Source: Apostichopus japonicus (taxonomy: Eukaryota > Echinodermata > Holothuroidea > Aspidochirotida > Stichopodidae). From it: a stretch of DNA of 64,000 bases. A model generated the notes under the pieces. That model saw only the letters and a list, made by a program, of their open reading frames with translations. It did not search any database and was not told where the DNA came from. The stretch lies in assembly GCF_037975245.1 (NCBI RefSeq), contig NC_092577.1:24921398-24985397 (forward strand). The letters are read 5' to 3'. The position numbers and the translations under genes are program-made. Below are positions 31,425-61,550 of the stretch, in pieces (the first letter of the stretch is position 1; every line of letters starts with the position of its first letter).

Positions 31425-31591
31425 GCGCAACAGGAATATCATAAAATGTTGTAGACACATCTCCCAAAGATTTGCAGTGAATGTCTACCCTCTTCCCAAG
31501 GAACAAAACAGTCAATTTTTGGACCTTTCACTGAAACTTTCTTTACAATTCCATTACCCCCTCTATCTACAATAACTCCAACAAGCTCATC

Positions 31592-33289: not shown

Positions 33290-33295
33290 CACATA

Positions 33296-33577
33296 TATGA
33301 AGTGCCATATGTGACAATATTATATACCATATATATTGATTATAACGAGTAATATATATTGGTTATGCAGTAATATATATGACTTATGTGTGTTCTTCAT
33401 ATATATACGTTATGCATAACCTATATATATTGCATATCATATATATATCGCATAACATATATATATATATATATTGTTCGTTATAACCTTTATATATTTT
33501 ATACTATTTTGTCATGTTCGGCGCGGTTATATATATAGATTATAAAAGTGTGAGTGACACGCGCGAGTGGGAGGAGC
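33296..33577 (+). repeat. Left TIR of the 28-kb transposon
   Basis: About 282 bp, inverted match to 61270-61544 with scattered substitutions and small (TA)n length changes. Internally it holds near-palindromes GGTTATGCAGTAATATA, GTTATGCATAACC and GTTATAACC spaced by TATATA runs, then GACACGCGCGAGTGGGAGGAGC at the inner edge. The palindromes are candidate transposase-binding sites. Confidence 0.88.
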
Positions 33578-34109
33578 TTAATTTCCTTGATTATTTGAAC
33601 ATTCGCGCCGCATAAAGCCTAGGTACATGTCAATCAGTCAATGTGTTCAACACATAGAAATTGATTAGGATAAATTTCTATGGTTCAACAAGTGATGGAT
33701 CTTCAACAAAATAGTTATTTAGACGCCTTTTCTGAGCTCCCAAACATCTATAGTGAAGCAATTCGTTTGCAAAATACGGCAGACGAGCAAAGAGCACATA
33801 TCGTACAAGGAAGGGTTGAATCTGCGATACATTTGGTACGTGTTTCGCTAGATTACCTTCAACATCTGCCCGTTCCAGGAGATGAAGCTAATTTGATGCT
33901 TGTAAGTGGCTTACAGCAGCTCCTTGGAGCTTTAGAAAATTTGCAAACCGGCTACAGTGGAGAGGCTGACGACGATATTGACTACAGTTTTCAGTGTTCG
34001 ACGATCCAAGGTGATGCTGGCCGACCACGGTAAGACTATAAGACTTGAGAGATTAATCCGGGCATGGCCCTTCGCCTTGGCTAGGCCTAACAGTTAGGCC
34101 TAGTTTAGT

Positions 34110-34430
34110 TTAGTAGATCAAGGGTCAGGAAGGACATTTGTCCTCATGAACGACCCTGTACCACAGATAACACAGACTGCCAGGTGTGATTGTGGATGAA
34201 CACCGGCTTTTCAGCCTTCTCTTCACGACCAAGTGCTCAGATGATAACGAGACAGGCGTGAACCCATCCTGCTCCCTGGACCGCCATTTAACGTCCCCAT
34301 CCCATGGACGTGAGAGTACCCCATACTTCGACCACTTTCTCAAAGTCTGGGGAGGTGGAAGCAACTTGCCCGTCACCACTGTGCAACAGCCGTGCCGAAC
34401 AACCTGAAGCGGAGAACCCCCATTAATTAA
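34110..34430. repeat. GC-rich unidentified repeat in transposase intron 1
   Basis: A compositionally distinct 320-bp block (TCAAGGGTCAGGAAGGACAT to GAACAACCTGAAGCGGAG) inside AT-rich intron. Both strands have short open frames without family resemblance. It looks like a dispersed repeat or SINE body, but no Pol III boxes or TSD were found. Confidence 0.35.
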
Positions 34431-34535
34431 CAACTGCAGCACATTCAAATCAACTCTGGATTGTTGGCAATCATGTGTTTTATCAGCTTTTATCAATTCC
34501 CAAAATGGCCAGCACTGTTCAAATTATTCCCTATA

Positions 34536-34637
34536 CAGTGTTCTCCATGAAGGGTTTTCGGGTGGTCGCGTGCCACCCAAGTGAAAATTGCTGCACCCGC
34601 CCGGGCCCCCCTGAAAATAGCTGCCGCCCCTCTTAAA
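34536..34637 (+). mobile_element. Fragment of CAGTGTTCTCCA-terminus TIR element
   Basis: About 100 bp starting CAGTGTTCTCCATGAAGGG and including GCCACCCAAGTGAAAATTGC. It is an inverted copy of the right end of the element at 57190-58216. Only one end is present. Confidence 0.65.
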
Positions 34638-34879
34638 CAAGAGCCCAAGGGCACTGTGGTTCCTTGCTTGGGGTATATGACAATACACATAATATTATCA
34701 AGCAAGATTGGGCTGAAATAGTCCAAGTAATTGTGGTCCTACATGTTCCCATAAAGTAACCAACACTATAGCCAACACTTTTGTGATCACAAAATGTGAT
34801 CGGATTTTTTATCAAAAGGCACTTTTGAGATCTAAATATGGCGTCGAAAATGTAAGAAATATAAGAGACCTACAAGCGT

Positions 34880-37310
34880 GTCAACAGATATGATAACAAT
34901 GGTGACCTCAGATGACATGACCTTTAAGTTTCAAAATGTTCCACCACACCATTCACAACTTGTCCCAAAATATCAACCATGTCACACCTTGGCATTGAGA
35001 TTTAATTGCATTAAAAGTCAAAAAATTAACTTTGAACTTGTATGTAACTTCACACACAAAGGTCACCCGGAGGTCAACCAATTGACATTTTTGATCGGTG
35101 AGACCTAAATAGAGCATGACTGTAAAAATTCAAACATTTTTTCTTTGCCCATTTTCTCCCCCCATAATACTACTTTTTTAACATTAGCTGACCTTTGGTG
35201 ACCTTGGATCACATAACCGTTAAGTTTGAAAATATTCCCCTATACCATTTGCAACTTGTCCAAAAAAATCAACCTTGTCACACCTTGGCACTGGGAGTTA
35301 TTGCATTAAATGTGTGAAAATTAACTTTGACCTCAAATAACTTCGCACACGAAGGTCAAATGGGGGTCAACCCATTGACATTTATGATCAGAAGTTACCT
35401 TTGACATCTGAAAATAGCATCGAAACTGTAAAAATCCCCAAAACACGGAAAGGTCACCAGAGGTCAAATTGAGGTCAAGGGTCACCCAGATGCGGGTCAA
35501 CAATTGGATTACATTGAGGCAACTCCCAACCCTAACAGACATTTTGTTCTCAAGTTATTGCAAAAATACTAGTTTTTTATCATTAATTGACCTTTGGTGA
35601 CCTTGTATCACATAACCGTTAAGTTTGAAAATATTCCCCTATACCATTTGCAACTACTCCAAAAATATTAACCTTGTCACACCTTGGAACTGGGAGTTAT
35701 TGCATTAAATGTCTGAAAATTAACTTTGACCTCATATAACTTCGCACACGAAGGTCACACGGGGGTCAACCCATAGACATTTATGATCAGAAGTTACCTT
35801 TAACATCTGAAAATAGCATCAAAACTGTAAAAATCCACAAAACACTAAAAAGGTCACCAAAGGTCAAATTGAGGTCAAGGGTCACCCAGATGCGGGTCGA
35901 CAATTGGATTACATTGAAGCAACTCCCAACCCTAACGGACAATTTGTTCTCAAGTTATCGCAAAAATACTAGTTTTTTATCATTAATTGACCTTTGGTGA
36001 CCTCGGATCACATGACCGTTAAGTTTGAAAATATTCCCCTATACCATTTGCAACTTGTTTCAAAATATCAACCGTGTAACACCTTGGCACTGGGAGTTAT
36101 TACACTAAATGTCTGAAAATTAACTTTGACCTCATATAACTTAACATACAAAGGTCACCTTGGGTCAACTTATTGACATTTTTGATTGATGAGACCTAAA
36201 TTAGAGCATCAAACTATAAAAAATCAAACATTTTTTTCTTTGCCCATTTTCTACCCCCAAAATACTACTTTTTTGACATTAATTGACCTTTGGTGACCTC
36301 GGATCACATGACCGTTAAGTTTGAAAATATTCCCCTATACCATTTGCAACTTGTCCAAAAATATCAACCATGTCACACCTTGGAACTGGGAGTTGTTGCA
36401 TTAAATGTCTGAAAATTAACTTTGACCTCGTATAACTTCGCACACGAAGGTCACACGGGTGTCAACCAATTGACATTTTTGATCGGAAGGTACCTTTGAT
36501 ATCCAAATCTAGCATCAAAACCAAACATTTTCTTTTTTGCTCGTTTCCTCCCAAAATAAGCACATTTTTTCTAATGTGACCTTTGACCTTTTGACCTTGG
36601 TTTCAGATGAAGTTTAATCTCCTGATTCCAAAAAACAAAACGAAAAGTCTGTACAACCATCCTAACTCCGACCGAAAAACTTTGACCGCATATAACTTCG
36701 CACATAAAGGTCACACGGGGTCAACCCATTGACATTTATGATCAGAAGGTACCTTTGACATCTGAAAATAGCATCAAAACTGTAAAAATCCCCAAAAACA
36801 CGTTAAGGTCACCAGAGGTCAAATTGAGGTCAAGGGTCACCCAGATGCGGGTCAACAATTGGATGACATTGAAGCAACTCCCAACCCTAACGGACATTTC
36901 GTTCTCAAGTTATCGCAAAAAAACTAGTTTTTTATCATTAATTGACCTTTGGTGACCTCGGATCACATAACCGTTAAGTTTGAAAATGTTCCCCTAACCA
37001 GTTAACAACTTTTCCCAAAATGTCAATCTTGTCGCACATTGGCACTGGGAGTTATTGCAGTTTTAATATGTTCGGTTTTTGGACCATAACTGACCTTTGG
37101 TGACCTTTGTGGGCACCAAAAACAATAGGGCACACCTTCTCCATATGGCGGATCTATAGTCCAAGTTTGGCCTCAATCCAACTTTCCCTTATTGAGATAG
37201 AGCGTACCCAAGAAAGTGTCACAGATGCACACACAGACACACACACACACACACACACACGCCAACCTGACTGCATAGGTTCCTTTTGCTAAAGCAAGGA
37301 ACCAAAAATC
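34880..37310. repeat. About 400-bp-period minisatellite rich in TGACCT/AGGTCA, transposase intron 1
   Basis: Units share TGACCTTTGGTGACCTCGGA, CATTTGCAACTTGTC, CACCTTGGCACTGGGAG, ACTTTGACCTCATATAACTT and AGGTCAAGGGTCACCCAGAT. The TGACCTTTGGTGACC phrase recurs at about 35189, 35588, 35988, 36283, 36938 and 37089, giving a period near 400 bp with partial units. The block ends in a (CA)n run at about 37230-37260 and CAAGGAACC. Related blocks lie at 14640-15805 and 58330-59030. Confidence 0.85.
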
Positions 37311-40300
37311 CCTCCCCTCTAGACAATCTCAAAACGTCACATTTTGCATTTATCTTTGTTTATGTCATTGCCCAAACATTTGGCTGTCAAAATTGTGTGC
37401 AAAAAGTACATACATGTATGTATAGTTTAACTATTAGTATTCATTGAATTACAAATCCTTATTTCTATTTAGGTTTTGCTTGACCATGCCACAGTTGGAA
37501 GAACATTATCAAGTTCTTGGATCTTGGAAACAAGTGGCTTCAACACTGGAATATATCATATAGAACCGTTCTTCGAAGAAGACATGAGTTCCAGATGCCT
37601 ACACACCTTGGAAGCGGCTATAGTCAAATCACAGATGATGATCTTGATGCACTAGTGCAAAGCATATTACAAATCTCACCAGATGCAGGTAAAGTCCAAA
37701 TGTAATCTATCTAATGTGACAGTACAAAATGTGACAGTACTCTTCAGTTTTATTAAGCATTTCATTTGAAAATGTTTTATCACCTATAGTAACCATTTCA
37801 GTTGAAAATGTTGTATTGACCACTTAGTCTGATTCAATTCAAAGCAAGGGGGTTGATCAGAGAAATATACATAATACATTGTCTATTACACATGAAGACC
37901 TTGTTTTATCATGAACTTCCCCTTTAAGATAAGGAATCAGTGACAGTTGGTACTCTTGTTCTGATTAAAGGTCTGTACTGTACTACTGTCAAATTGTAGG
38001 GAACTGTATAAGTTCTTTTTACTGATTTTTTTTATAATAAATGTTTTATTTGTGATCGCAATTAGTGACATGCAAACCACTGTTTACCTCACGTTAGGCC
38101 TATAGACACTGACGTTAACTACTGTACACAAACTCACAAAGCCACATGATGATTTGGTCATTGGAATTTTTACTTGCTCAAGTCATAGAAAAAACCTAGA
38201 TTGGGGAAATCCCTGAGTGCAATGTAAATTTTGTTATATAGTGTACATGTAGGTTCAATATTGTGTATGTTAATGGATGAGTGATCTAAAGCCAAATATC
38301 TGCCCAAATGGAATTCAAGACTCTTTTTTTTCAGAGATATTTTCCTTGATTCTATGTATCATCCATCAAGTTGATGGGATGCTAAAACGAAAAAGAGAAA
38401 GACAAAACAGTGTTTGCATTGCGGCAGTGTTTGTATTTGTCGGGCCACATTTAGTGTGATTTGGTAAAGTTACCGAGCTAGCTCTATGTTTAGGATAACG
38501 TTGTTATAGATATTGAATACTGTATGTGAAAAAATGCCAGTTGAATTTTTACGGCAAATGGATGAAGTCAAATTTACTCACAGATGAACTGTTTGTATAA
38601 AATTGCTTGCGATATCGGTAGGGTGTTATCAGCAATTGACACAAATTTCACAGATACCAATATGAGGCAGATAATGACAATATCAATCGATACCGATACT
38701 GTATACTGATAATCGGCCCAACACTATTCCAGAGTGCATTTTGTGTGCTTGTTCATTAACACCAGACTGATGCAAGGATAAGGAAGAACAATCATACAGT
38801 CTTACACTACTGAAAGTATAACTGACCAAAGAAATCTATTGAAACTAAAGAAATACATTTCACATAATTTGACCATTTTAAGCAGATTATAGCATATCTT
38901 TAAAGCTGTTTGCTGGATGTAATGGTACTGTAGCTATCCATGACAATTTTCAATTTATGCACTGGCATTAAAAAATGATAAAAAATAAACTGTTTTGTGA
39001 TGATATTAATAAAGACTGCTAAAACAAAACAACACCGGTTTGTTGCAAAATGTACAGGTTTGTTAACAGTGATGAATTGTTGTAATAAAAAAGTATATCA
39101 TCCAAGACTGTGACTGATGAGGGTGTACAATATCTGTACATAAAAATTTGATATTCATACCCATATAGTTTATAGTAGTTAGTATCTGATTAATTCAATA
39201 TTTACATTTTTAAAGGTGAAAGATATGTCATTGGAGCTTTGACTGGACGAGGAGTAAGAACTCAAAGATGGCGGTTGAGACAGTCCATTTCTCGAGTGGA
39301 TCCCATCAATAGATTGCTCAGAAGATCATATGCAATTTGTCGTCGGACATACCATGTTCCTTGCCCAAATCATTTATGGTAAGCAATCGTTAGGCAGCTA
39401 TACAGTAACACTTGCATTGCTGTATTATGTGTGAGTATGTACAGTACTGTTGCTAATGAAATGTTTCATGTAATGTGCATGTACAGACATACTAATCCTC
39501 GAGATCCCCTACATGCATGTTATCAACAGATTTGTGGTAATAAACCTCAATTTGGGTGGGTTTGAGGGATCTTACCCAACTAGCATTGCATACTTTCCGG
39601 AATTTGTTGTTCTTTTGAAGATCAAGATGCATGTAGGTAATCACTTTTATTATTTCATATTCCAACTAGTGCACCAATGGTGCAGTGGCTCTTACAAATA
39701 TTTGTTAATTTATCACAAGTTACATTTCATATTCATGGCTGAAATGAAGTGGTCAGAGTTCATTTGTAACAAATTGACTTCTAGCAATGTGTTAAAATTG
39801 GTGTGCATTTTCAGATAATGATCTCAAATAACCCCTAAATGACCTCTGACCCGAAATGTATGGACACCACTTATGTTTCAACACCTAATGATCATTGCAT
39901 TTGTGTTACACTAAAAAATCCATAAAAAAACAAAAGATCAATGCTATTTTCCATTTTATGACATGTGACCTCAAATCGCTAAAAACTGCACATGCACCAA
40001 TACTCAATGATTAAAATGTGTAACTTTGGAATACCCCTCATGTCCCCTCATCAAATAAACATTGTGTTCAAGTTTGGTCAAACTCCATTGAGGAGAAGCA
40101 TGCTGAACAAATGTGGACAGACAAATAGATTTGATTTTGAGGTGGTTTTTGCGTGTGGACAGACTATATTTATGTAGACATATATAGACTCGGTCAGGAG
40201 TGTTATGTATGTTGGGTGGTGGGAACCAGGGATTTTGCATTTCCAAAAGTGACTGTGTGTATGTGTGTGGTGTGTGAAAGCTCATTCGTAAGTTTCACTA

Positions 40301-41750: not shown

Positions 41751-42514
41751 GTTTATGGTTCTGAGTGGATTTGCACCATTATCTTTTACTGTTTCCCCTT
41801 CACAGGCATATTGATGGTAACCATAAATTAATTCCATGGCGGTTGGTCATCCATGGTGGGATCGATGGATACAGCAGACGGGTAGTGTATCTCAGGTGTA
41901 CCAACAATAATCGTGCCCAAACAGTCCTTAGTTTATTTCAGGAAGCTGTTATCTCTATGGTGTCCCCTCCCACGTCAGGTCAGACTTGGGTGTTGAAAAC
42001 TATGATGTGGCAGAGTTTATGCTTGAAAGACGAGGGCTAAACAGAGGAAGTATGATAACAGGGAGGAGCGTGCATAACCAGCGCATAGAGAGGTTATGGA
42101 GGGATGTGAATGTAAAGGTTGTCCGTTACTTCAAAAATGTTTTTATGGCCATGCAGGATGATCAAGTTCTAGATCCATTGAATGAAATTGATCTTTCATC
42201 ACTTCATTTTGTTTTTATACCACGAATCAATAGGGCTGTAGCAGAATTTGTACTTCATTACAACAACCACCCCCTTAGTTCATGTCATAATCAGTCCCCA
42301 AATCAACTGTTCCACCAAGGTTTTTTTTCAGCTGTTTCATTCAGATTATACTGGAGTAGAGAGTGTGTTTGATAGTAATGAACAGTGGGAGTTGTATGGG
42401 ATTGACCCTGATGGAGATGCACCTATGAATGAAACAGAAGATGGAGTACAAGTTCCAGAAACACTGTTAATCCACTCGAGAATGATGGAAGTCATGGATA
42501 TCAATTGTACCTGA

Positions 42515-45500
42515 ACACTCGGTCATTTGTTACAGAATGCAATGTCCACAATTAATATTGCTAATAGGTAATTCCACGGTAAATCGCATTACACTTTTTC
42601 AATTTTTTTTTATTGCAGGTTGATTATTTGTGGTATTAAAGCCAACACTCAAAGCAATGATCTCAAATTATTCGGGGTGATGGCACTGCTTTGTCTTATG
42701 TATGGTGCTCTTGAGAAAATCAGTAACTCGCATTACCCAAAAAGGACACATAAAAAATTGATGCAAGTTCAATGCAGTTGTTTGCTCAAACAAAAGATGT
42801 TGTATCCAGTTGAATGTATGTAGTAGATATCTATTCCACTGGTGTTTACATCAAACTGCTAAATGATATGAAACAACTTAAGATGTGGTGTGGAAGGGGA
42901 AATAATCCGGTAACTCGCATAACGGTAACTCGCATTTCACTTTGTCCAGTCATCAATGAAATCTAAATGGAAAATAAAATGCTGAAACTAATATTTCTAG
43001 TGGAAGGTGACTTACATTATATGTAAAGTTAAATAAGCAAAAATTTATCAAAAAGTAGTTCATGACAAGGGGGATAAACAAAATCGGTAACTCGCATTAC
43101 ACAAAAAGTACACAGCAAAAATGGAGATACTAGTTTAGTCAAACAAACAATGTTTTGTTCAATTGAATGTATGTACTAGATATCTACTATATCCTGAAGG
43201 TTACATTGTAGCACAACAAAATATAAAACAACTTAGAAGTGGTTAGGAGGGGGGGGGGGAAGAATCTGGTATTGCCCAGTCAGTATTTTCATCTTCATAA
43301 AATTCTGGAGAATTATTTGCTCTGAAGAACCATTGTAGAAGTTTAAAAGCATTGTACCAACAAATAAACAACAATACTTATACCTCTGTCAATAATTTTA
43401 GTAATAATTGCTGGCCAAATTAAAATATGTGATGAACAATGATGACAATGTTCATTTCCAATGATTCACACACAATTTAAATGTTAGCTAAAGCTGGAAT
43501 AGGGTTTTTCAACTTGTTTTATCATTCAGCATCATGGATGAAAGGTTTTGCATTCTTTGTCATAAGGCAATATTCAGTTTTTTTCAGTATTTACTGTATG
43601 ACAACTGGCATTACAGTGGTTACTCGATCGCATTACAGCACTGTTAACTTGCATTACCGGTAACTCGCATTACGGCTTTCAGTGGCCCTTCATATCAAAA
43701 TATGCATGGACTTTCTATTTCTTTGATTATTGTTAAACTCAGTACTTGGTCCAAAAAGCAAAATATGGAATGGCAGAAAATTATCGCCTCCAGGAGAGCA
43801 ATAATGTTAAAATCTTGATTGCTCAGGAACTCGCATTACATGTCAACATAGACGCCTTTTAACTACAGCAATATACCTACAAGCCAAAAATGGTGAATGG
43901 GCAATGTGATGTGATTTTAAAATATCATAAATATTTCACACTTGTACAAGTTACTTTCATACAAGGGAATATGGGACTTTGAAAAATCCACACAGACTCA
44001 CTTGCATTTTAATTGCAGAACCACAGTCAGCTATCACTGCACTTTTTTGTGGTAAAATGACACTGTATGCTAGGAAAAAGTTTCTGATCTGGACCCTGAA
44101 TACCTTAGCATGAACCAAAAGCAATATATTGGGTCAGAAAGGATTCTTTCATTTTTGGGGTCATGTCCCTGTTTGCATGGAATTGCCCTAATACATAGCA
44201 CTCTAAGCTATGCATAACAAAAAGTGAAATGTTAAAAGAATAGTGATGAGAATGAGGACGAAGTAAACTACACTCGGTGGTGAAAGTCCCATTTCTAGTT
44301 GCTGAGATATGAATGTTTCAAATAAGTTCACATTTTCAATTTCATTAAGAATCTGGCAACATTTGTGACATCAGTTGCATATTGAATCCATAAAGCTTTT
44401 GATTTTCTTGATAATTTAATTAGTGATTTTTTTCTAGAAATAACTTATCCATAGAAAAAGAATACCAAGGTAACAACTGATGCATAATGCATTTTTCATA
44501 TATATTACAAACTTTGGCATACCACTTCAAATTGGTATTAAAAGGGGTGAAACATGTAAAGAATAACAAAGACTTTTCATACCAAGAGAACTGAATGTAT
44601 TCTAAGGTATATTTCTCACTAATTAATGATAATGATTATAATATAATTGTTTTATAAGATGAACAATGAACTGAATGTTTAAAACATCACACCTTCAAGT
44701 TATTTCATGATTTGACCTCTGATGAAAAGTTGCACTAATGATATTGCAACAGTCGTATGTTTGACAATTGCAGGCTTTAATCTATGGTGATATCCAAGAA
44801 CTATATTGCAACATAGGCAACAGATAGTTACATCTAACAAATACTCTTATAAGCATTAACCTGTCCAGATCAAAATGTGAACAAATACATGAATTTCTTA
44901 AACTTTCTTGATTACCAAATAATTAAAAGAGTAAAAATATTTGACATCATATATATTGTTGACTGGTTGGTCAAGCATGAAACAAGAGAAAGAAAAGAAA
45001 ATGTTTAAAGCAAAACAAATTTTGTCACTTTGTATTTTATATAGAGATGGAACTTGTGGGCAAGCTTCAATTGTGTAATGGTGACTATTCAGTAAGACAA
45101 AATTTTGCTACACTCATGCAACTAGATATATATCAGAATCTTGTGTTCAGTATATCCATGGGTACCACGTTACATAACATGTTTGATACAGTGCAAACAC
45201 CAACACACTGCAAATGTTCCAAAAACCCTTTCTGCCATGTTGAGCCCATATTCAGATATCAGTAAATGTCATTATCATGATAACACTATTGGTAATATAC
45301 AGATAATCATATTAACACAATGTAAATTATTTTAGCTACCTCTGGTATGTAAAATGTTGGTACTCCATGTACCTATCCCAGAGGATCACTTCCTCTACTC
45401 ATACCATTAATTGCATCCTAGATTTAATTATGCTCAAAAATGGGGAAAAAATGTAAAACTTGCCAATGATTTACCATTATCATCTAAGTATCTACACATC

Positions 45501-47494: not shown

Positions 47495-50400
47495 TCAAAA
47501 CCTGCCAAAATAATCACCAGTCTGTGCCATCCTGTCCAGTACTGTTGTTTTGAAAGAGGCATAGGTGGTATGGCCCTGAGGAAACATGATTGAACACTGA
47601 CAAGTATTGGCGATGGGTGAAACCTCCTCAGGACGTAAGGTGTTAACAGCAATTGTTAGCTTCTGGTCAGGGGAGAATGAAGGGCTGCCAGTTGCAAACT
47701 TTGCAAGAATATGTGCGTCTGTGTCATCTAAAAAATAGAACATATATTTTTTGTTATGAACCAATGGGAATCATAAATACATTTTATTGATCAGGCTATG
47801 ATAAGTATATTTTTGTGAATACTATACAATCATAAACCCCAAAATGTTTAGTGGTTCCAATGCCATAAAATATTAAAAAGTGTTATCATTAGCCTTTTTG
47901 CAAAGTTTTCAATACTGTAAGCTAATATGCATTATATTGCTAATGAAACCAATAGGTCCACACCACACCTATACAACATGATGCATCTGCCTGTCAAGAC
48001 TGGCAAGCTGTCACATGTTTACACACAACAGTGAGGTAGTAAATTCAAGTCAAGCACATTCACCAGACAACTCTTAAGACATAACAAGCAACATATGTAC
48101 GAGGAATAAGATTAATCCAACTTGGGACTGCTGAGATAACGTGGTTACAAGCTTGGTGTCACACACACACATGACACACACACACACAGGTGTACATTCA
48201 GTCAGAGGACTTCATTTAAATTACCTTTATCCTAACCTCATAGGCCCTCACATTGACAAAACCCTAACCTTAGTTTGTCTTCAGAGGACTTGAAATTCCT
48301 TTGTTCAAGTCCTCGGACGTTATGACCCTACATGTCCATACACACACACACATTCACGCATACAGGTGGGTTTTACACTATGTCTGAGGACTCCATTGTA
48401 ATTTGCTTTGTCCGCGCCCTAACCTGACAATACCTTTACCATTGTTCGAACGTCCTAAGACCTTTTGTTTCTATTGAATTTGTCTTCCAAGGACTTGGAA
48501 TTCCTTTGTTCAAGTCCTCGGACCTGCTGCAAAACACGTCCACACACGCCAACGTGATTGCATAGATTCCTTGCAGCCAAGGCAAGGAATCAAAAAGCCA
48601 GTTGCTGATAGATACTGTGATCAAGACCAGCTGGCCGAGGCTGTTCTCGAGTGACAAACACACATACATGATCACAAAGGTCCCTGAGCCTTACTAAAAT
48701 TTTACTAATAGAACTGTATAAATATTCTACTTAATTAATATCTATGAGGCACTGAATAAAAAAATAAAAAAATGATGGATTAGTAGTCAAGTACTGTCAA
48801 TACAAATATCAAGTATGGTAACCATAAATCATATTGATCTGTACTTTTAATCTCTAGCTATTTCCAGTGGTTAAGTATTAAGCCAAGCATCCTCATGAAC
48901 ATAAAATGTTTTAATATATATATTATATAAAAATATTTCGAATTCTGATGAAAATATACAGCTATATCATGTTTGATGTATGACAAATGACACTCTGGCT
49001 ATTTTGTGGTATAGATCATCCGTATGATTATTCTGTTGTCATGAGTATTAAAGGCATGGGTATAATATGTAATAATAAGTATTTGTATGAATCAATAAGT
49101 AATATCATAAGTATTTCCAAGTTGGCAATATAAAAGCCATCAGACAGTCTGTTTATACAAATTTCTCATGAAAGGCTATTGCAACACATCATTGTTTTAA
49201 ACCTTGCATTTCATATAAGTTTGAATATGAATGTATTTGACCAGAAAACCAAAATATTTAGTGGTTCCAATGCCATTGGTGAAATTTTATTAGTTATCTG
49301 ACATACCTGAACATTGGAGAGAGGTGAGGAATTCCATTGTCATGTGCCAATGAACATCTCATCATCTATCACCATACCAAGGATGAAGCTGATCAGACAT
49401 ACATTCGCAAAGATATTGACATTTTAGCCCGCCCGCTAACAATTATTCATGTCATAGACAACTATACGGCATATCTTGGGACATCTACCAGTTCAAGTTG
49501 ACATAAATTCAATATACTTCTTTTATGTTTACAGGCCATTCTGATAAATTTAGCCTTAATAATGCATTCATGAATATTAATGAGGATCTCTGATCGATGA
49601 TCATCTAACATCACACGACAAAGTATGAAGTAAATTGGACATGCAATAGCAAACTACTGACATTTTAAGAATTTGACTGTCCTGCCACTCATTAATATTC
49701 ATGTCATGGAAAACAAAAAAATAGGGCACATCTAATCATGGAGCACCTAACAATTCAATATGACGGTAGTTCATCATATTGTTTCTACAATTCCATGTTT
49801 ACAAACTACTTTCAGGGATTAAGCATTAAGCCCCACCCACTCACGAATATTAAAGACCAACTATGGAGACTTTTCGATGAACATAAAATCCCACCATTTT
49901 TCATGTATGTAATCCTTAACTGACTCCAATTACATTGCTGTAATTAACTTTACCAATTTCGGACGTTAAATAAGTGAAAAATGGGACGAAAAGTCAGCTT
50001 CTATTTCAGACATTCCCGAAACATTCCTAAGACATCAGGTGACCATGTGACGTCAACGTTTGTATACCTCACTCACAACTATACTTTTAGTGTGTAAAGT
50101 CGTATACTTGAGCTGCCAAAAACATCAACGATATTACTCCTTTTTCCTCAAAATGTCACAATTCTGTGTTGTTGGAGGTTGCAGTTATACCTCATCCAAC
50201 AAAAGCATCAGCTTTTTTAGATTTCCGAGTAAAAGAACCGACGTAAAACGCCGCAGACTTTGGATCAATTTTTTGAGATCCACGCGGAAAGATTTTTCAG
50301 CACCCGGAGTATCTCATGCCCATGAGTCCACATGCATGACCCTGCTTCTGTGCATGTTGCAAATGTCTCATTCTGTGAAAATTATATACTGTCGATAGCT

Positions 50401-53400
50401 GTGTCGGACCATGGTCGGACATAGCTAATGTGAAATTGACCGTAAACACGCCCTGGACGTCCTTACATGTAACATTATATCACTCAATTGACAGTAATAT
50501 ATTTACTGTAAGAGATGACCGTATATATATACCGTGCCAAGGGTATAGCATTGTTAGTACATGTACGGTAGTTAGTTACAACTCTCGCCGGCGTTGGCTC
50601 ACAGCATTTGTAAATAGCCATGTTAGGATTTATCTATTTCATTTGTTGTATTCCAGTATCGTGAGTTCGTGATACATGTGTAATATTGTCCGTTCTGTTT
50701 ATTCCGACATCTGCATGTTCCAAGGAGTTGAATAAAAACGGTAGTATGTAGCGATCGGACGTTTTATTTCGTTAGTGACTGTCTTGTGATTGTGGGATGT
50801 TAGTACTGTTTCAACTAGACCTAACTCTATGGAATTACACAGACTCACGGTAGTTTTTCGCCCAGGATTGAACAAGAAACGTGGATTAGGATATTCACTG
50901 CTAAATTTGTTTATTGACAGGATACTTTTTCTGTGTTTGTATACTTTTGGATATTAAAACGAGTAAGTACTATGTAAGTATATTGTACCGTACGGACCTA
51001 TTGACGCTACGCTATGTAAAAGATGCCTCCATTTGAGTGGAAATTTTGCTAATAAAGTAAGCAATTTAACTAAAATTTCTGCTTATAATTGTCTTAAAAC
51101 TTGTTGTTAACCTTCATGTGTTCTTGTTTTGAGCTAACAGCTTTTCAAACACTCGAAATTGGAAGTCAAAAACAGTACAATTGTTCGCTATCTGTGTACA
51201 AACAGCGCCTATATCAGCGTTTGATTTTCGCGGTATACAAACTTTGACGTCACACGGTGACCAGAGGCTCCTTTGGGTCAATCTCTGTTTTCAGACATTC
51301 CAGAGGTTCATGTCACGTGACTACCCAAAATGTCCATTTTCGTGGTCGTTTTTGATGGGTTATAGTAGGTTTTCGAAGATTATTTTTTACACATGTTGAT
51401 TATGGGTATGTAAACTCCTAAATTAATGGAAAATCTCAAAAAAAAAAATTGCCTCCATATTTGGTCTTTAATATATAATACAAACATACCGACAGGGTTG
51501 CAAAGGTTACTCGGCCTTTGGCATTGCAACCAAAAATGTAGTCTGCACATGTAGTGAGCTTGAATTTCCAGACCAAAATAACTGAGCCTTACGATATGTT
51601 GAAAGTGTCATAATTAGGGGTAATTAATTACCCAAATCTGTGAAGAAGCTGGATATTAAGCTGACAGTCCTCCGATACCCTTCAGACTCTGCAGGTCTGT
51701 CAAGCTTTTGCAAAGCTTCTTGCACCATGATCTTCAAATCCTTGGCCAAGATTGGTCTGATAGCCAAGAGATCTGCAAAGGCTTCTAGATCAACCATGTG
51801 GAGCTCTGGAATGCAATCCAAGAGACCCTTCTGCATGGCATCGATGGCATCCCTCCTTATCCCAATGGTATAATGGAACATGAGACAAAGAGCTATGTCA
51901 TGTTTGTTTTCTACCTGTACAAAACAATAGACAAGTAATTAACTTATCAGCCTGTAATTGTGTACAATCTCATCTAACATAACCATGGTAGTCAGTGGCC
52001 TAATAAGGTCATTTTTTGATTGGTGGGGATTTCTTTCTGATTTTTATACATGTCTCTGGTGTACAGCTGATTTGCCAACTGTATTTTTGGGGGGGGGGGT
52101 GGCAGTCATAATTAGCCCTGACCTACATTTTTAAAACTAGTGATAGTCATGCATGTACGCTGTCTCTGTCATGAAAACCATAAACAGGACCTAACTTTGA
52201 AAATACAGGCTTCAATAAAATTCATAACATGTCAATTTCCTGGAACATATCTATGGACATATATTTCTGTCAAAACCACTGGATGTTCCAAGCTACACAT
52301 TACTTATATGATAAACTTTGTGCTTTTAAGCTCTTCCAATTACTTCATCAACTAAACCACTCTTTCATTGAATGATATTGCCCATGTATGCCAATCTAAA
52401 ATTGGTACACTCACCTTCATTGCCTTTGCAGCTGGCCACCCACAGCTGTCAAGCCAGTGTGTTGGCTTGCTCTCATCAGACAACAGTTGCTGAAACATGT
52501 CCTCATCTGTCTCTTCCAATAGCTTTAAGGACAGAAAAAAAAACAAATTAGGAAAAATGCATTAATATATTTTATCATATGAAATAGTCGAGAGCAAAAT
52601 CATTTTGGTTAGGTATGTGGCCACTTTTGTGATGTCATCGGCTCACTTGCTGTGGAAAAGTCTTTGTTAATTCCAATTTGAAATGGTATGCCAAAGTTTG
52701 TAACATTTTTATTACAAATGTATTTTACAACAGTTGTTACTCTTGGATATTCTATTTCCATGGATAATTTAAAATCATTAAATTAAGAAAGAGAAAAGCT
52801 TCTGGATCAATGTGCAATTGTGATGTCACAGATATTGCCTCATTCTGAATAATCATTACAAAGTTGAACATCAGTTTTCCTCTGGAATATTCTTTTAACT
52901 ATCATCTGACAAATCATGCACACATAATAATTGTTTTGGTGTATCAGCACATAAATGATCTCCAGCCATCCGAACCTATATGCATTCTACGTCACTGACT
53001 AGACACAAATTGGCTACATATAGTTGGAAAAGCAAATACTAAAGAATCACCATTCATGACACACTTAATACATGTTGAGAGTACAATAAACCTTTGTTTT
53101 GGTGCAATTGTATAACACTTATTATAAGTTAGAAATCAAGCTTACAAACCTTGTTTACACATTTTTTTTTTGGAGGGGGGATTATAAGCATGGACTGCTA
53201 ATTGTCACTAATTAATACTACACTACACTAATTAAATGTTCATTTTAAAAATAGCCAGTTAATGCAAATTTTAACTACAAAATGGGGAATTCAACAATTT
53301 AGGACCTTTTGACCAATGATTGACTGATTTAACAAGAATGATGACAATGGCAAGGAATTTGAAGGTCATATGGATGTCACCAGGGTTCATTTTAGGTCAA

Positions 53401-56400
53401 ATTACCAAACATTGTTGAATCCACATGAAATTTGGTACATATATAATCAACATTTGGTTCAAAATTTTTTTCCTACATGTATTATTCTCATTACCTCTGT
53501 TATGAAATCTTGGAGGCTCAAGTCGATTATGTCATTTTTATGCAGCTGTGCATAAATTTCTTCCTGTGTCTTCTTTAGTATGACTGCAATCACTGCCTTA
53601 TGTAAGGGAATTTCTACTGACACTTCATTCAGAAGTGCAGTGCCAATCGCTTTCCCCAACACCTGGTACATCCCTGAGAATGTGGGGAATTGATTGTTTG
53701 AAGGAAGCAGTTTTCCTGTAGGCGTTGATATTACTAGGTTTTTTTCTGGTGACCGGACCTCTTGAAAGAAGATACAAAAATTTTCACGGATAAGTCCTCC
53801 AGCATCAATGCCTTCTCCTTCAAAGTGCACTCTGATGGGTCCACTCTTAGCATCAAACCTGCAATTCTTGAAGAAGGCAATGTTGTCATTAAATAGTTCA
53901 TCTCTATGAACATATAGGTTGTTTGTAGGTTTGTTGTTGAAGTGAATGAGGGATATGAAGTCTTGTATCAGTGAAGCTGGATTCTTCAGTTTCCTACTTT
54001 GCTGGGAAGGATCATCCCCTGACAGACTGACTGACTGTCAGAACTGACTGATGGAGACAGAGTGGCTGAAATTACAAATAAAAAGCTGAAAACTCAATAT
54101 GATGTAGTTATGGCCCAGTTCCACTGGATGACAGGGGCGGCGCCAGGATTTTCCCGAAGAGGGGGCCCGAGTTCCCCGGCGTGGGTGCCAAATTCCCCAA
54201 CAAAAAGTGTTATTGTACACATTGTATACGGTAAAGCATAAAGGCCCTATTTTTTCCGAGACGGGGAGGGGGGCACTCCGCTGCAGGGAGGGGCCTGTGC
54301 CCCCGATGGGCACCGCCCCTGCTGGATGACACTTTAACCCTGACCCATCCATATACACTGGTTGGATGCCTGAGCATTCTAGCAATGAAGTAATTAATTA
54401 TTTGATCAGATTTTATTTATGATTAAGAAAATATCCAAAAGCCCATAAAACAAATCCTCCTAATTAATAAAGATGATCCCCAGTCCAATGAGTCCATTCT
54501 GCACTAGCTCAAGGGTTAGAGTATGTAAACTTCTAGTGGACATGATACAAATATATATCCTTAAACCAGATATGTGGCAAGGATATGGAATTTTATGAAT
54601 TTGATTTTGAAGCCACATATACTCATCAGAGTGCAGAGTCATATATGTGTGGATTTGTGCAAAAATTGAGAGAAAGAAAAAGCATATATTATCAGAAGTA
54701 GCTGTTTTCAAATTGATACATTGCATTCACGCATACCTTCACATATCTCACAGTAATCTGTGTTAGATGAGTTAAGAAAGGTGCACTGCAGGCAAGCTCT
54801 TGCTGTTGGAGGGGCACATTGTGCTGTGGATACTGATGATGTCAATGCTGATGTCCTTTGAGGGGCAGTGGACCTCAAAGCAGATCTAGATGATGAGGAT
54901 GCATGTGCTAATGATGGTGATGATGATGATGATGTTCCTAAGAACGGGTCTGGCATGTCATTATCTTCCTCATCCTATATATCAAGGAGCACCAGATATA
55001 AACCATAAGCAATCTTGGATTAAAATCTAGGACAACCCAACCCAACCAAAGAACAGTCAAATATTCAGTGCTTCTGCAGCGATTGACCAGTGTCTGCAAT
55101 AAATTTAACTAATATCTCAGACCCGAGTCCGGACTGGAGTCCGGTTTTAAAGGGAACATTGCGAATTATCAGCGCGCTTTGTGTGCAGTTATATATTACT
55201 TTCAGCTGGTATTGTCTTCGGATGTAATTTGTGCAAAATGTGTTGTTTAGCACCAATCACTGTAGGGGTGGAAGTCAGAGGGGGCCACAGCCCCATCGGG
55301 ATGTGTAGCAAAGACAAAAGGCTAATTTGGATACCTCTCCCATTCACTTCATGATTAACGTCACCGAATCCTCTATCAAGGTAGTATCTGTAGATGTATA
55401 GGCCGTACAGGTGGACTGCATGCGAGACTGAAATGATCAGTCATGAATGTGACCCTAATATTATGTCATCGAAAACTCGGTATCCGATAGGTGTCATGGG
55501 CCCCGAAGTTGGTCCAGCTTCCCTAAGACCAAAATGTATTGCTTAAGGCTACCGTCATCGACGTTTCCCATTTTGTCTCATGTCTGTAAATATATACATT
55601 TAATTACCCCACCGAAATAAAAGAAGTGTTTTACTTTTTGGCCAGTAATAATTTATAGGCCTAATATAAATGATGCCACACCTATTTGTTAAACAATGTG
55701 GCCAGGTAAAACTAAGATGTAAATTTCTAACCGCCCCCCTCCAATGCCCAAACCCCCCCCCCATACTATGAGATTTCGAAATATAACCATTGACATATGT
55801 AGGTAGGTAGGGAATACAGTTATCTATCTGTATATAAATTTTGTCAAATTCAGCCAATTGTCGACTAGCCAAAATGATTAGTAGGCCTACTACTGTAAAT
55901 AGCTAAGTCTAGATCTATGCCAAGTTTAGGTTTCAAATGTTAGGTATGTAATTTCTGTGATAAAATCGTGCCTATCTGTTTAAACATACTTAATAATATA
56001 TTTTTAATGTAGTTTATGACTAGTTGTAGGCTCTGATGTTCTTGCACATTGTCATAATGAGCAATTTGTAATGCTGGTTGTTACAAAATGATTGTAATAC
56101 AGCACCTTCCCATGATGCTCTATTACACATTGTGGGTTTCTGGGGAGGTTAAAGTATAGTGAAACATCAGGTACATGACATTTGACATATTTCCTTAATT
56201 AAGCAAGGTGACTAATGAAAATGTCTCTATTTTTGTCATTTTGTTTAATAAATATTTTGTTAATATTTTGCTATTTCATATTGGGGATAGCTGACTATCC
56301 CATGATATAACAGCACCTATCCCATGCAAATTAACCTCCACGGCTAACTTAATTCCCAATTGCCCCTAATATATGAAAGGAAATATACATACCGAGGTAT

Positions 56401-57511
56401 CTACAGATATCCTTCTCTCTGGGCGCAGGTACATGGTTTTCTGAGCAAAAATGTCACAAACCTTTGCTCCAGACATTTTTTCTCCTTGTGCTAATCTTGG
56501 AACTACCAAGGTTTGCCCCGCAGGCTTTAGAATCTGAAAACTTTCAGACAAAAATCCGGAATGTAAATATGCAAAAGTGCAAGAGTGGTTCTGATGCTAT
56601 TATAATAAACTAACATATTGATCTATACTTGTAATCGTCAAAATGAGTTATTTCCGTGGGGATAGGGAAGTTAGAAGATATAGCTTCCCATCGACTGGTA
56701 CAAAATTTGGTAAACAGTGTTTTAAAATGAATGTACTGTAAAATGCCACTGCCACTCCCGAAAAATCAACCGCCACTCACAGATTCCTTGCCTATAACCC
56801 TGCATATTTCATATAATTTACCTCATGGAAGATCCATCATTCAGTCTATCAGCAAAAGCATCTTGGAGCCTCCTTGTTACTTTATCAATAATGCATCCTT
56901 TTTCATGCAGCCTTGCTCTGTTCTGTCCTCTAATTGTTGAGGATCTGTAGAGTAGAATATGTATGTACGTACATAGCCTATATGTATATGCACCGGGGAG
57001 AAAAATCGGACCAAGATACCCTGGACCATACCCGTCGGTAACCGACAAAATAATCCAGACGTATTAATTCGGCTAATTTTAGCCACGGTGTATATAGGCT
57101 AGCAGATTTATACATGCATCACAAAATGGTCAATTTATACGCTACTTATAAGTAACTATTTGTGTCTAAGGCACTAACGTTAGGCATGCCAGTGTTCTCC
57201 ACAGATATACACAGGGATGAGACTGAGCCGGGGGAAAAAAATCTGAAATTTATCGATCGCCGTCCTGGGGGAGGGGCTTAAGGGGAGGGGGTATCCCCTC
57301 CCCTTTACAATTTTTTGTCAGGTAAGGAGGGCCTATATGGAATCTATCACATCACGTAACTCGCCAAAAAAGTGTGGAATTTCTGCTTGTATAATTTATC
57401 CATTAGCTTTTGTGAACCAAAAAAAGGCTTTTTTGCTTGCTTTGTGCTACTTGATTCCACCACTGGTCAAATTCGGTGTTCCTTCCCTTCACAGTCCAGC
57501 ATGTTCGGCCA

Positions 57512-57545
<34 letters not shown>

Positions 57546-60500
57546 AAGTAAATCCAAAAAGTAATAAAAAATAATAAAAAACGCGAATTACGAGAAAAAA
57601 CGCGAAAATGAAAAAAAAAACAATCGGAAATCCGCGTTTCCGCGGAAGAGTCTCATGCCTGTATACAAGAACATTTTGCAAAAAAAACCTCCTAGCTAGA
57701 TCACGGGAAATGACACTTAATTCCCAGGCTTTGCTTCGAAACCTTTTTTATTTTGAAATCTCATGTGTACATCGTGCAAGGCATCATGTAGATACTGTAC
57801 CGTAGGCATACATACTTGTGCACCATATACAGTTTACTATTACATTATTTGTGTATTGTATCTGTAACATTAAGTTAGTTTATGGACAAACATCGCGGAA
57901 TTGGATACCGTTTAAACATTAAACGAACGTTCATTTGTACCGTTTAAACAGATAGAAAATTACACGGAAATTGACAGTCCTAATACATCAGAGATCATTT
58001 TTCTTCTTAGCAAATCAATAGAAACTCAGTGGAATGATGAAAATTTGGTACTTAGGAAAAATTTGTGCAATAACTGATAACAAACATCTTATCAAACATT
58101 CTGGAACATTTCAAATTTTTAGGGGGCATGATTTTTTTAGGGGCCGTAACTATTTCTGGGGGTGGCAATTTTCACTTGGGTGGGCCGCCCCCTAAAACCC
58201 CTCGTGGAGAACACTGCATGCATATAATTGCTATAATAAAACCAAAAGGTTTTGTGATTCCCTGCTTGAATTGAAAATTCTGATGATGAAATTGCTTTAA
58301 ACTCCTTTCTGTCCAAATTATATATTTTAGGTTTCCCCTACTCTGAGAAACCTACATGGGTGACCTACATACCAACTATGAGTTTCATCCATGTTTCCCC
58401 TATAGAGTTAGCCTGATTACAAGGTTTTCAGCAATTGAACTGTGTTCACATCCTATGAAATCAACAGGTTCGTCTACTCAATATGGGTGACCTACATAAC
58501 TACTATGACTTTCATAAAGTTTCCCATATAGAGTTAGCCCGATTACAAGGTTTTCAGCTATTGACCCATGCTTACCTCAAGTGACCTTTAACCTCTTATA
58601 AAATCAATAGGATTCATCTCCCCAATATGGGTTACCTACATACTAACTACGAGTTTCATTCATCCAGGTTTCCTCTACTGAGCTAGCCTGATTACAAGGT
58701 TTTCAGCAAATTACCCATGTTAACCTCAAATGACCTTTGAACTCTTATAAAATCATTAGGGTTCACCTACTCTACTAATATGGGTAACATTTGTACCAAG
58801 AGTAAGAATAATCCCACTTGGGACTGCTGAGATAACAGGTTACAAGGTTTTCAGTGTTTGACCCTTATTGACCTCATATGACATTTGACCTATTTCAAAA
58901 TCAATAGCAATCATCTACTCAATATGGCTAACATATGTACCAAGTAAGATATTAATCCAACTTGGGACTGCTGAGATAACGTGGTTACAAGCTTGGCATC
59001 ACACACACACATGACACACACACACAGGTGTCCATTACATTCAGTGCGAGGACTTCATTGAAATTTCCTTTATCCTAACCTAATAGACGTAAAATTGACA
59101 ATACCCTAACCTTTGTCTTCTAATGACTTGAAAGTTGAAAATCACATTGTACTGTATTTCTTCCAAGAACTTCCTTTGTACAAGTCCTCGGACGTTATTA
59201 CCCTACATGTCCGCACATACCAACATGATTGCATAGATTCATTGTGGCCAAGGCAAGTATGTCGCCCACTTTTTGAATTGTCAGAGTCATGTTTTGTAGG
59301 GTCTGATATATGTCATGATTATCTAAGTATTTGCCAAGGTTGTTAAATTGATCTTGGAAATGTAAATATTTCTGAATAATATTACAAAATTAATGTGCAA
59401 GGACTTGGAAAAAATCCCCACCCCCCCCACTCTGGGCCCTGATGTAGTCTGCCTGTGTGACTACCAAAAATAAATCATACCATGTTTAAAACCCTATGAA
59501 AAATTGAGCACTCTGGAATTTACATAATACAGGTAATCTATAATAATTTTTTACTTAGGCATATGTGCACAGTGAAATTTAGTGTGATTCAACATTGAAG
59601 GAAGGTCAAACTTACTCATTTGGGGTCAAAAGGAGGACAACATCAATAGCTTTCCCAGCTGATGCCTGTTGGGTATATGGGCGATACCTTTGATTGGTCC
59701 CTCTGCTAGATGATCCTCTCCTACTCCTAGCCGGAGCCTGCCCACGTCCTTGCCCTCGACCACCAAAACGGAACAGGTTCCGCATTTCCTCATGGGCAGT
59801 CTGAAACACATTCCTACAATGAATGTCAAAAGAGCATTATGTAAATTAAAAAAACTATGAAAGGTATGTCATGTGTCACTTAATTGTGAACAATGTTTTT
59901 TTTTAGTTAACCATTTGGGGAAATAATTTCTTTTCCATTTTCATTTGGAAGATTGCTGCCTAACGTGTAATTATGTATTTGTGAAATTTGATAAGATAAT
60001 GTCTCTTTCTGATAACTGTCTTGTCACATATTATATTAATGAGTGTAGAATACATTGAATTATATTATATATAATATATAGAGTTCATACCCTTATTAAG
60101 TATCTTTCTGATCGATTTAGCATTTTTCTCACAAACTGTTTGAAAGTTATGTTGACCCACATGCATAGTGCATGTAGATTCAGCCCTACATGAATTTGGT
60201 ATCAGTTATATTCTTGTGCAAGTCAAAATTTGTCCTGTGCATACATGCACATTTTGTCTACATGCGCGCATCATGCACAGAGATGAAGACCTACATGTAC
60301 CATTTGCCCACATGTAAACGATGAAATACAAAACAAGGAAACAAAATTGCACTTTCAGGGTACAAATACAATCGTCCTAAAGTGTGAAAGTCTATTAAAG
60401 TTGAATTTAAATAAAAATAATAATGTAAGTATAATAACTTTGATACAATTTAAGTAACATTTTATTTTCTTCTTGGCCTTTTAAAATTTATTTTCATTAA

Positions 60501-61045
60501 ATAATGAGTCTGATGGCTTGGTCATAAATTGGGACCCTGATTCAGTTTTGCTTTCCTATTTTGAGAAGAATTTTCTTGAAAAGCTGATTTTTTTGGCCTA
60601 TCCTAAATGTGATTTTGTTCTTCCGCCTCAGGTCTACAAAGACCTAGGGCCCTGTAGGGGCCTAGCCTAGGCCTAACTTAGTAATTACAGTATGTTACAA
60701 AAACCTTAATCATACTAGTTATATGAAGCTTTGTGTAACGTACCGTAGTTAGGTCATGGACTAGCACTAGCGTAGACTAACTGGTTAGGCTATATATCAC
60801 TTTACCATAGCTAGCCTAGGCTTATAGGGCTAGGCCTAGCTAGGGGCCCCTAAGATAAGTTGGTACTAACACTGCAGTTGGGCTAAGTCTCCAGTACAGT
60901 TATGCAATTTGTTAGGCTAAGCCTACCTGTTAGTGTTTGTTGGACGCTCTCGGTCTCCCACCACTCTCATTACTTGTCTTGCGACAGGCTCAGCAAGCCT
61001 ATTTACCAAGGAAGAAAACTCGCTTTCCGTTAAGTTATTCGACAT
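47495..61045 (-). CDS. HECT-domain E3 ubiquitin ligase with RanBP2 zinc finger, eight exons, intact
   Basis: Exons on the minus strand: 61045-60927, 59813-59616, 56540-56393, 54974-54737, 54030-53495, 52522-52415, 51914-51632, 47727-47495. All are GT-AG and the phases (2, 2, 0, 1, 0, 0, 1) close exactly to 620 codons plus stop. Start MSNNLTESEFSSLVNRL; Gly/Arg-rich segment about 55-76 (RFGGRGQGRGQ); Ser-rich linker; RanBP2-type zinc finger C216, C219, C230, C233 (CLQCTFLNSS..YCEIC); HECT N-lobe from about 260 (VHFEGEGIDAGGLIRE, GKAIGTALLNE); C-lobe with FATGSPSF and catalytic C586 in PIANTC. HECT enzymes accept ubiquitin on this Cys and pass it to substrates. It is shorter than most HECT ligases and resembles the compact G2E3-type. 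Acceptors of exons 3 and 5 are the weakest. Confidence 0.82.
48091..48600 (+). repeat. Dispersed (CA)n-containing repeat, two adjacent partial copies
   Basis: 48091-48345 (ACATATGTAC, TCCAACTTGGGACTGCTGAG, CACACA run, CAAGTCCTCGGACGTTATG) is closely repeated at 58931-59217. 48370-48600 is a second diverged copy ending GATTGCATAGATTCCTTGC and CAAGGAATC. Confidence 0.8.
49854..51467. mobile_element. Kolobok-like TIR element with TTAA target duplication, in HECT gene intron 7
   Basis: TTAA at 49850-49853 precedes AGACCAACTATGGAGAC; the inverted end GCCTCCATATTTGGTCT is followed by TTAA at 51468-51471. Inner subterminal sequence is also inverted (GTGACGTCAACGTTTGTATAC near 50049; GTATACAAACTTTGACGTCAC near 51232). 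It carries a THAP-domain exon. TTAA TSD plus THAP is characteristic of Kolobok. 1.6 kb, no transposase core visible, non-autonomous. Confidence 0.75.
50153..50398 (+). pseudogene. THAP zinc-finger exon (fragment)
   Basis: MSQFCVVGGCSYTSSNKSI, then FFRFP and a later Trp in RRLWINFLR are the first half of a C2CH THAP DNA-binding domain (C-x4-C, conserved Phe-Pro and Trp). The closing Cys-x2-His and the AVPTF-type motif are missing: the frame ends without them at 50398. Either a first exon whose partner is gone or a decayed remnant of the surrounding element's transposase. Confidence 0.65.
54132..54321. mobile_element. 190-bp hAT-like MITE with 8-bp TSD, in HECT gene intron 4
   Basis: Left end CAGGGGCGGCGCC and right end GGCACCGCCCCTG are inverted repeats (12 of 13). 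The 8-bp direct repeat CTGGATGA flanks them (54124-54131, 54322-54329). CAGGGG termini with 8-bp TSDs fit hAT. GC-rich, non-coding, and absent from neighbouring AT-rich DNA. Confidence 0.85.
57190..58216. mobile_element. 1.0-kb TIR element (CAGTGTTCTCCAC termini), probably hAT-like
   Basis: Perfect 13-bp inverted ends CAGTGTTCTCCAC (57190-57202) and GTGGAGAACACTG (58204-58216). The 5-bp CATGC flanks both sides (57185-57189, 58217-58221). A single right-end copy also lies at 34536-34637. It contains a second TIR element (57212-57661). No transposase. Superfamily uncertain because the TSD is only 5 bp. Confidence 0.7.
57212..57661. mobile_element. 450-bp TIR MITE nested in the preceding element
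   Basis: Ends CAGGGATGAGACT (57212-57224) and AGTCTCATGCCTG (57649-57661) are inverted repeats (12 of 13). TATACA directly flanks both (57206-57211, 57662-57667). It contains an A-run of about 26 at 57511-57536 and further A-rich sequence with AAACGCGAA words. Confidence 0.65.
58330..59217. repeat. About 120-150-bp-period minisatellite with (CA)n tail, HECT gene intron 2
   Basis: Imperfect units share CTCAATATGGGTGACCTACAT, TTTCCCCTATAGAGTTAGCC, GATTACAAGGTTTTCAGC and TGACCTTTAACCTCTTATAA. The last unit leads into the (CA)n-containing repeat also present at 48091-48345. Confidence 0.8.
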
Positions 61046-61269
61046 GTTGAAAGCACTGAGTGTTATAGGTCAGTGGTTGAAAGGTTCGATAGTGTATTGC
61101 GGACAGATAACGTGGCTTTTGCCCTATTCTTCTATTGCATTACAGTGTAGGTATATACTGAAGCACTAGTATATATACTATACAAGTCCTTTTGCCCGCG
61201 CTCCGTCGAAAAAGTTTATCAACATTACCGATCGTACACATGGTGCTCGCGAACGCGATTTGCATAACG

Positions 61270-61544
61270 GCTCCTCCCACTCGCGTGCCACTCACACTTT
61301 TATAATCTATATATATATAACCGCGCCGAACATGACAAAATAGTATATAATATATAAAGGTTATAACGAATATATATATATATGTTATGCGATATATATA
61401 TGATATGCAATATATATAGGTTATGCATAACGTATATATATGAAGAACAAACATAAGTCATATATATTACTGCATAACCAATATATATTACTCGTTATAA
61501 TCAATATATATGGTATATAATATTGTCACATATGGCACTTCGTA
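61270..61544 (-). repeat. Right TIR of the 28-kb transposon
   Basis: Inverted partner of 33296-33577; ends TGGCACTTCGTA, followed by TSD CACATA (61545-61550). Confidence 0.88.
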
Positions 61545-61550
61545 CACATA

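Follow-up and report, generated by a model that had tools for sequence, protein, structure and literature searches.

Within a 64,000-nucleotide stretch of the genome of the sea cucumber Apostichopus japonicus (contig C17, 24921398-24985397; hereafter, the window), we identified a DNA transposon of 28,249 bp (window positions 33296-61544) in which a gene for a DDE integrase (plus strand, four exons, 33680-42555) converges with a gene for a HECT E3 ubiquitin ligase (minus strand, nine exons, 61045-47495). Very probably, the element belongs to an IS3EU-type family with two genes, the integrase and a ligase of long standing, and the copy seen here is damaged. The two genes have transposed as a unit, because the insertion sites of the copies differ and each has its own 6-bp target-site duplication (TSD). 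Moreover, the ligase can be regarded as a long-standing gene of such elements because the two genes are also found together in two divergent lineages of this genome and in one sponge-like contig. As far as sequence comparison goes, the best reading of HECT is that IS3EU-like elements of this sort have it as a conserved second gene.

The boundaries of the element are set by terminal inverted repeats (TIRs) of 282 bp (left) and 275 bp (right), which align over 273 bases with 4 mismatches and 11 gap columns, and whose outermost 175 nt agree at 99% over a separation of 27.9 kb. The ends are of the TA..TA type, and the same hexamer, CACATA, stands on both flanks (Table 1). Each gene starts a short distance inside a TIR, with the integrase start (33680) being 102 bp inward of the left one and the HECT start (61045) being 224 bp inward of the right one. 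Here, a first-pass annotation of the window had described TIRs of about 280 bp with a 6-bp TSD, two convergent genes between them that start 100-230 bp inward, and termini like those of IS3EU; all of this was borne out, the last by the TA..TA ends and by perfect TSDs in nine of nine copies (see below). Its description of a self-contained, two-gene transposon holds with regard to the two genes, but the copy in the window is not intact, and the undamaged gene models that it had offered gave way to frame lesions in both the integrase and HECT.

Table 1. Features of the element, with positions in the window (a dot marks features given without a strand).
Feature	Position	Strand	Remarks
Left target-site duplication	33290..33295	.	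CACATA
Left TIR	33296..33577	.	starts TATGAAGTGCCATATG
Integrase exon 1	33680..34029	+	N-terminal part, GRPR at end; heavily fragmented or missing in two of the three further full copies
Insertion in integrase intron 1	34640..37304	.	tandem repeat of about 400 bp; not in the 3 other full copies
Integrase exon 2	37473..37688	+	without Pfam match in the window; +1 frameshift near 37549
Integrase exon 3	39216..39378	+	
Integrase exon 4	41806..42555	+	contains the DDE core (PF24764); two frameshifts (near 41951, near 42322); deletion of about 43 nt near 42458
HECT exon 9	47495..47727	-	C-lobe, catalytic-type Cys (IANTCQCSI), stop
Nested insertion, last HECT intron	49847..51474	.	22-nt inverted ends, THAP-domain open reading frame; missing from all three other full copies
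HECT exon 8	51632..51914	-	
HECT exon 7	52415..52522	-	
HECT exon 6	53495..54065	-	N-lobe; frame broken by loss of 16 nt near 54021; uncertain acceptor
HECT exon 5	54737..54974	-	zinc finger, NPL4-finger-like (1nj3)
HECT exon 4	56393..56540	-	
HECT exon 3	56822..56944	-	33 nt (11 codons) fewer than relatives
HECT exon 2	59616..59813	-	
HECT exon 1	60927..61045	-	start codon at 61045; frame open in all four full copies
Right TIR	61270..61544	.	terminates in CACTTCGTA
Right target-site duplication	61545..61550	.	CACATA

With the left TIR as a query, we obtained at least 80 matches in the genome (40 of 279 candidates scored), and pairing these by eye gave 14 further elements, ten of which were examined in sequence; left out were the TIR pairs on C9 (2.8 kb), C1:12.56M (1.2 kb), C6 (0.36 kb), and C19 (2.0 kb), as well as two single TIRs. 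Three of the ten, namely C17:15.41M (23.4 kb), C17:20.10M (37.0 kb), and C20:17.82M (41.5 kb), contain the two genes in the convergent arrangement seen in the window. None of the ten has one catalytic gene alone, and HECT is present in all three copies that have the integrase core. Both terminal 22-mers could be located in 9 of the 11 elements checked (the one in the window included), and all nine have perfect 6-bp TSDs, each of them different, for which the chance of a match is about 1 in 4096 per copy. In these nine, the termini invariably read TAT at the start and GTA or ATA at the end, and the left and right TIRs diverge by 1.5-5.3% within a copy. That integrase and HECT genes should repeatedly co-occur between matching TIRs, as the first-pass annotation had proposed to check, is what we observed in four full copies of this lineage (lineage 1) and in the lineage-2 element described next. 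Aside from these, nine further TIR matches (79-82% over about 150-175 bp) lie on C13, C8, C10, C7, C17, C16, and C3, and perhaps represent a sister family or a family of miniature inverted-repeat transposable elements.

With a divergent HECT protein of A. japonicus (P0123) as the query, for which all 49 candidates were scored, we obtained 27 exon matches. They group into eight HECT loci, these being the four full copies of lineage 1 and four others. Six of the eight face an integrase core and one an integrase first exon, while the remaining one, a fragment at C17:24.14M, has no integrase within the 9.5 kb examined. Lineage 2 is an element of 21,518 bp (C17:15779116-15800633) in which HECT on the plus strand converges with integrase P0007 on the minus strand; it has TACGG..CCGTA ends, TIRs of its own, and the TSD GCCTAC, and both P0007 and P0123 match contig C17 at up to 100% identity. 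The third pair (C17:21616161-21635220) is likewise convergent, with HECT on the plus strand (57-66% to P0121 by exon) and the integrase on the minus strand (about 68-83% to P0001). At C16:30.72-30.74M, HECT on the minus strand stands opposite an integrase first exon on the plus strand, with no integrase core in the intervening DNA, and a search for TIRs around this pair found none (at best 49 columns with a score of 34, as against 23 and 19 columns with a score of 25 in two controls). We also observed that C17, about 5.5% of the 671.6-Mb assembly of 35 contigs, holds six of the eight HECT loci found with P0123, which might reflect local hopping or a region that retains long insertions.

As for the integrase, part of window exon 4 matches PF24764 with 166 bits, and the database protein P0002, a relative that is uninterrupted through this exon, does so with 256 bits. 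The catalytic D, D, and E of the core were identified by eye, with a spacing of 34 residues between the second D and the E. Upstream of the core, weak Pfam matches to helix-turn-helix domains are found in two relatives only (P0004 and L001, the latter a contig described below), and Pfam scans of window exons 1-2, P0004, and L001 found no zinc-binding integrase (HHCC) domain before the core. The protein search gave 1807 proteins; among the 120 listed, the closest is P0001 from A. japonicus (95% identity), and the sources include sea cucumber, corals, fishes, lancelets, and insects (beetles). No viral relatives were confirmed in three scans of viral contigs, for which the queries were P0123, P0004, and an integrase alignment (A4).

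The ligase is recognized by the HECT profile PF00632 in both the spliced window model (42.3 bits) and the Holothuria protein P0122 (35.0 bits), in each case above the Pfam cut-off of 23.9, and its best match in the PDB by sequence profile is UBE3A/E6AP (1c4z, E = 3e-10). Within the C-lobe, an NTC motif is kept in all four lineage-1 copies, in lineages 2 and 3, and in P0122, and it reads HTC in L003, another of the contigs described below; the Cys is one that we take to be of the catalytic type, having compared it by eye with the HECT consensus. The zinc finger encoded by exon 5 resembles the NPL4 finger (1nj3, E = 0.0019). An AlphaFold model of P0122 (alignment A3, 4 rows) reached a mean predicted local distance difference test score of 44.7, which is too low for use. 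An open-frame model of the window HECT with 662 residues was dropped once the 16-nt deletion was revealed; it requires another acceptor. The closest protein relative is P0121 from A. japonicus (93% identity). Presumably, there are also many multi-copy HECT genes of fishes and corals annotated as G2/M-specific ligase-like, and these may be related.

Scanning genome contigs with the integrase alignment brought up four loci (L001-L004), all filed in metagenome-assembled genomes (MAGs) of bacterial symbionts of sponges. Judging by the titles and by the eukaryote-type genes on them, they would be sponge host DNA, an apparent contamination of reference MAGs. In L003 (8.2 kb), an integrase on the plus strand (E = 3.5e-78 to the family profile) is met, 191 bp past its end, by a convergent open reading frame (ORF; 4999-6111) that matches the Pfam HECT profile with 28.5 bits (cut-off 23.9) and the sea cucumber HECT profile with E = 1.4e-7 and a probability of 94%. 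L001 ends about 0.5 kb beyond the apparent last integrase ORF and L004 ends within the integrase, both being too short to judge; altogether, the pair is present in one of the four contigs, two are too short, and it is absent from one.

A number of results weigh against the ligase being a regular and functional partner of the integrase. Seven of the ten further lineage-1 copies (about 3-12 kb) are internally deleted, having lost both the integrase core and the HECT domain and retaining, if anything, 5' portions of the genes. While a lack of HECT in other TIR copies is what the first-pass annotation had considered damaging to its claim, and these seven do lack it, the same seven are also without the core, and the three that have the core have HECT. 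The absence of either catalytic domain from seven of the ten copies implies that a ligase supplied in cis is not a necessity. Two HECT protein searches gave only 4 and 5 proteins, all those with a named source being from sea cucumbers, where such searches require common 5-residue words, which distant HECTs like the L003 ORF would escape. In the sponge-associated contigs, no match (probability 0.2%) was obtained between the N-terminal piece on L003 and the N-terminus of the sea cucumber HECT, and the integrase of L002 is followed by a polyprotein of the retrotransposon type (named by eye) rather than by HECT. The integrase-HECT pairing outside the sea cucumbers thereby rests on the single contig L003.

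Frame-aware alignment of the window copy with its relatives gave three frameshifts and a loss of about 43 nt in the integrase (near 37549, 41951, 42322, and 42458, respectively), and in HECT an in-frame loss of 33 nt near 56880 and a frameshifting loss of 16 nt near 54021. Frame lesions or stops are found in both genes of all four full copies when measured against the relatives' proteins (for integrase exons 1 and 2, the comparison was with a hand-joined protein or with the one from the window itself), and some single-base lesions, notably within T runs, may be assembly errors. Moreover, the lineage-2 integrase has a His at the position of the first catalytic Asp, and in lineage 3 both the integrase and the HECT C-lobe are broken by frameshifts or a stop. 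Present activity is unproven because of these lesions in the four full copies, the His in lineage 2, and the interruptions in lineage 3. For the HECT gene pooled over the four full copies, the ratio of nonsynonymous to synonymous substitution rates (dN/dS) is 0.49 (bootstrap 0.30-0.95). The values for HECT exons 6-9 alone (0.61; 0.27-1.64) and for integrase exons 2-4 (0.59; 0.28-1.50) are not significantly below 1. These estimates exclude stop codons, any codon lying 4 or fewer positions from a frameshift or gap, and the whole of integrase exon 1, which is badly split in two of the four copies.

Among other explanations, the idea that a host HECT gene lies by chance next to a transposon unrelated to it, or that one transposable element is nested in another, has practically no likelihood and is refuted by the same layout occurring between matching TIRs at four loci with four different perfect TSDs, with the divergent lineages having that layout too. 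It is unlikely that HECT is a passenger, in the sense of a host gene that was captured once and has been inherited with the element while taking no part in its movement. Such a role would agree with the perfect TSDs of the deleted, HECT-less copies (five of five with both termini, of seven such copies), with the weak support for selection on HECT among recent copies, and with the exchange of cargo genes, for instance TET/JBP, among fungal transposons, as told in the account of PMC12730594. However, three lineages within a single genome, and one contig that is apparently from a sponge, have the pair in the same convergent layout with the catalytic-type Cys kept, and a neutral passenger would be expected to decay or be lost across such divergence.

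A self-regulating ligase, which would ubiquitinate the integrase and so limit copy number or disassemble the strand-transfer complex, is a possibility that we regard as somewhat on the unlikely side. HECT is co-inherited with one integrase family, and other transpososomes require active disassembly, both of which would suit this role, but host targets fit equally well. It is very unlikely that the element belongs to another integrase-type superfamily (Ginger1/2, IS481EU, or Polinton) rather than to IS3EU/GingerRoot. The assignment to IS3EU was made by ends, TSD, and domains, which leaves some room for this. Yet no Polinton gene was seen by eye among ORFs of at least 70 residues (the Pfam scan being limited to 10 pieces of the element), and the TA..TA ends and 6-bp TSD match what the available text of PMC10045372 gives for IS3EU/GingerRoot, as opposed to the 4-5 bp of Ginger1/2.

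Returning to the two-gene element with a long-standing ligase, we picture its working as follows. Integrases of this family make 6-bp staggered joins, and the one here would bind the TIRs and cut and join DNA. The HECT protein would, via its conserved catalytic-type Cys, ubiquitinate a protein to the benefit of the element, perhaps aided by binding of ubiquitin to the NPL4-like finger. Its likeliest targets would be a silencing or repair factor of the host, or else the integrase, which would be turned over once strand transfer is done. A useful role of the ligase for the element seems reasonably probable, with a host factor and the integrase about evenly placed as the target. If this is true, the DNA transposons of eukaryotes would include a family with a ubiquitin ligase of its own, in which the handling of host silencing, repair, and transposase turnover is testable via one defined enzyme; and animal HECT genes of this type may belong to transposons and not be host ligases.

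Elsewhere in the window, a stretch related to the tandem repeat of integrase intron 1 lies at 14670-14918. To the left of the element, on the minus strand, 18461-22900 and 28970-31438 have endonuclease/reverse-transcriptase ORFs resembling those of non-long-terminal-repeat retrotransposons, one long and one broken (named by eye), and at 10857-12832 on the plus strand are three adjacent ORFs (180-286 residues) that resemble parts of one gene, perhaps another transposase. Scans of the window for Rfam families and tRNAs gave no match.

Relative to known systems, the element compares most directly with IS3EU/GingerRoot, which is characterized in PMC10045372 by TA..TA termini and usually a 6-bp TSD, with Ginger1/2 having TSDs of 4-5 bp. 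The termini, TSD, and DDE integrase-like transposase are alike, whereas the sea cucumber element is 28 kb in size, has introns and long TIRs, and carries a HECT gene, something that the main text of that paper does not mention. The Styx elements, as presented in PMC10853768, are modelled from a two-protein IS3EU ancestor, which is a point of likeness, but other Styx genes have GATA, CCHC, and DUF3577 domains, with HECT going unmentioned in that presentation. VTD deubiquitinases carried by Helitrons, according to the available text of PMC9741609, offer another DNA transposon with an enzyme of the ubiquitin system, though one that removes ubiquitin and travels in a rolling-circle element. When set beside HECT E3 ligases such as UBE3A/E6AP, the protein shares the N-lobe match and the catalytic-type Cys in the C-lobe, and differs in being divergent and transposon-encoded. 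We found no description of an IS3EU-HECT pair in PubMed Central full texts, the search not extending to Repbase, preprints, and most subscription journals, which may note the pair; the text seen of PMC12062965 is without HECT and that of PMC12763893 without ubiquitin, and neither bears on it.

The nearest parallel is that of the fungal TET+ IS3EU elements, in which, as outlined in PMC12730594, a transposase and an alpha-kinase are in opposite orientations with a TET/JBP gene between them. Here as there, a second, oppositely oriented gene encodes a protein-modifying enzyme, the difference being that it is an alpha-kinase in the fungi and a ubiquitin ligase in the sea cucumber. No TET gene was noticed in the sea cucumber element, in which no search aimed at TET was made. 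The new part is therefore the ubiquitin ligase as the second gene, since an IS3EU with an oppositely oriented second enzyme is already known from fungi. Taken together, the two suggest that in IS3EU elements the transposase may often be paired with a protein-modifying enzyme. More tentatively, and with somewhat more doubt than belief on our part, the HECT ligase might be an ancient and standard second gene of animal IS3EU elements that predates the split between sponges and bilaterians, with ubiquitination built into their life cycle, and so be the animal counterpart of the fungal IS3EU alpha-kinase.

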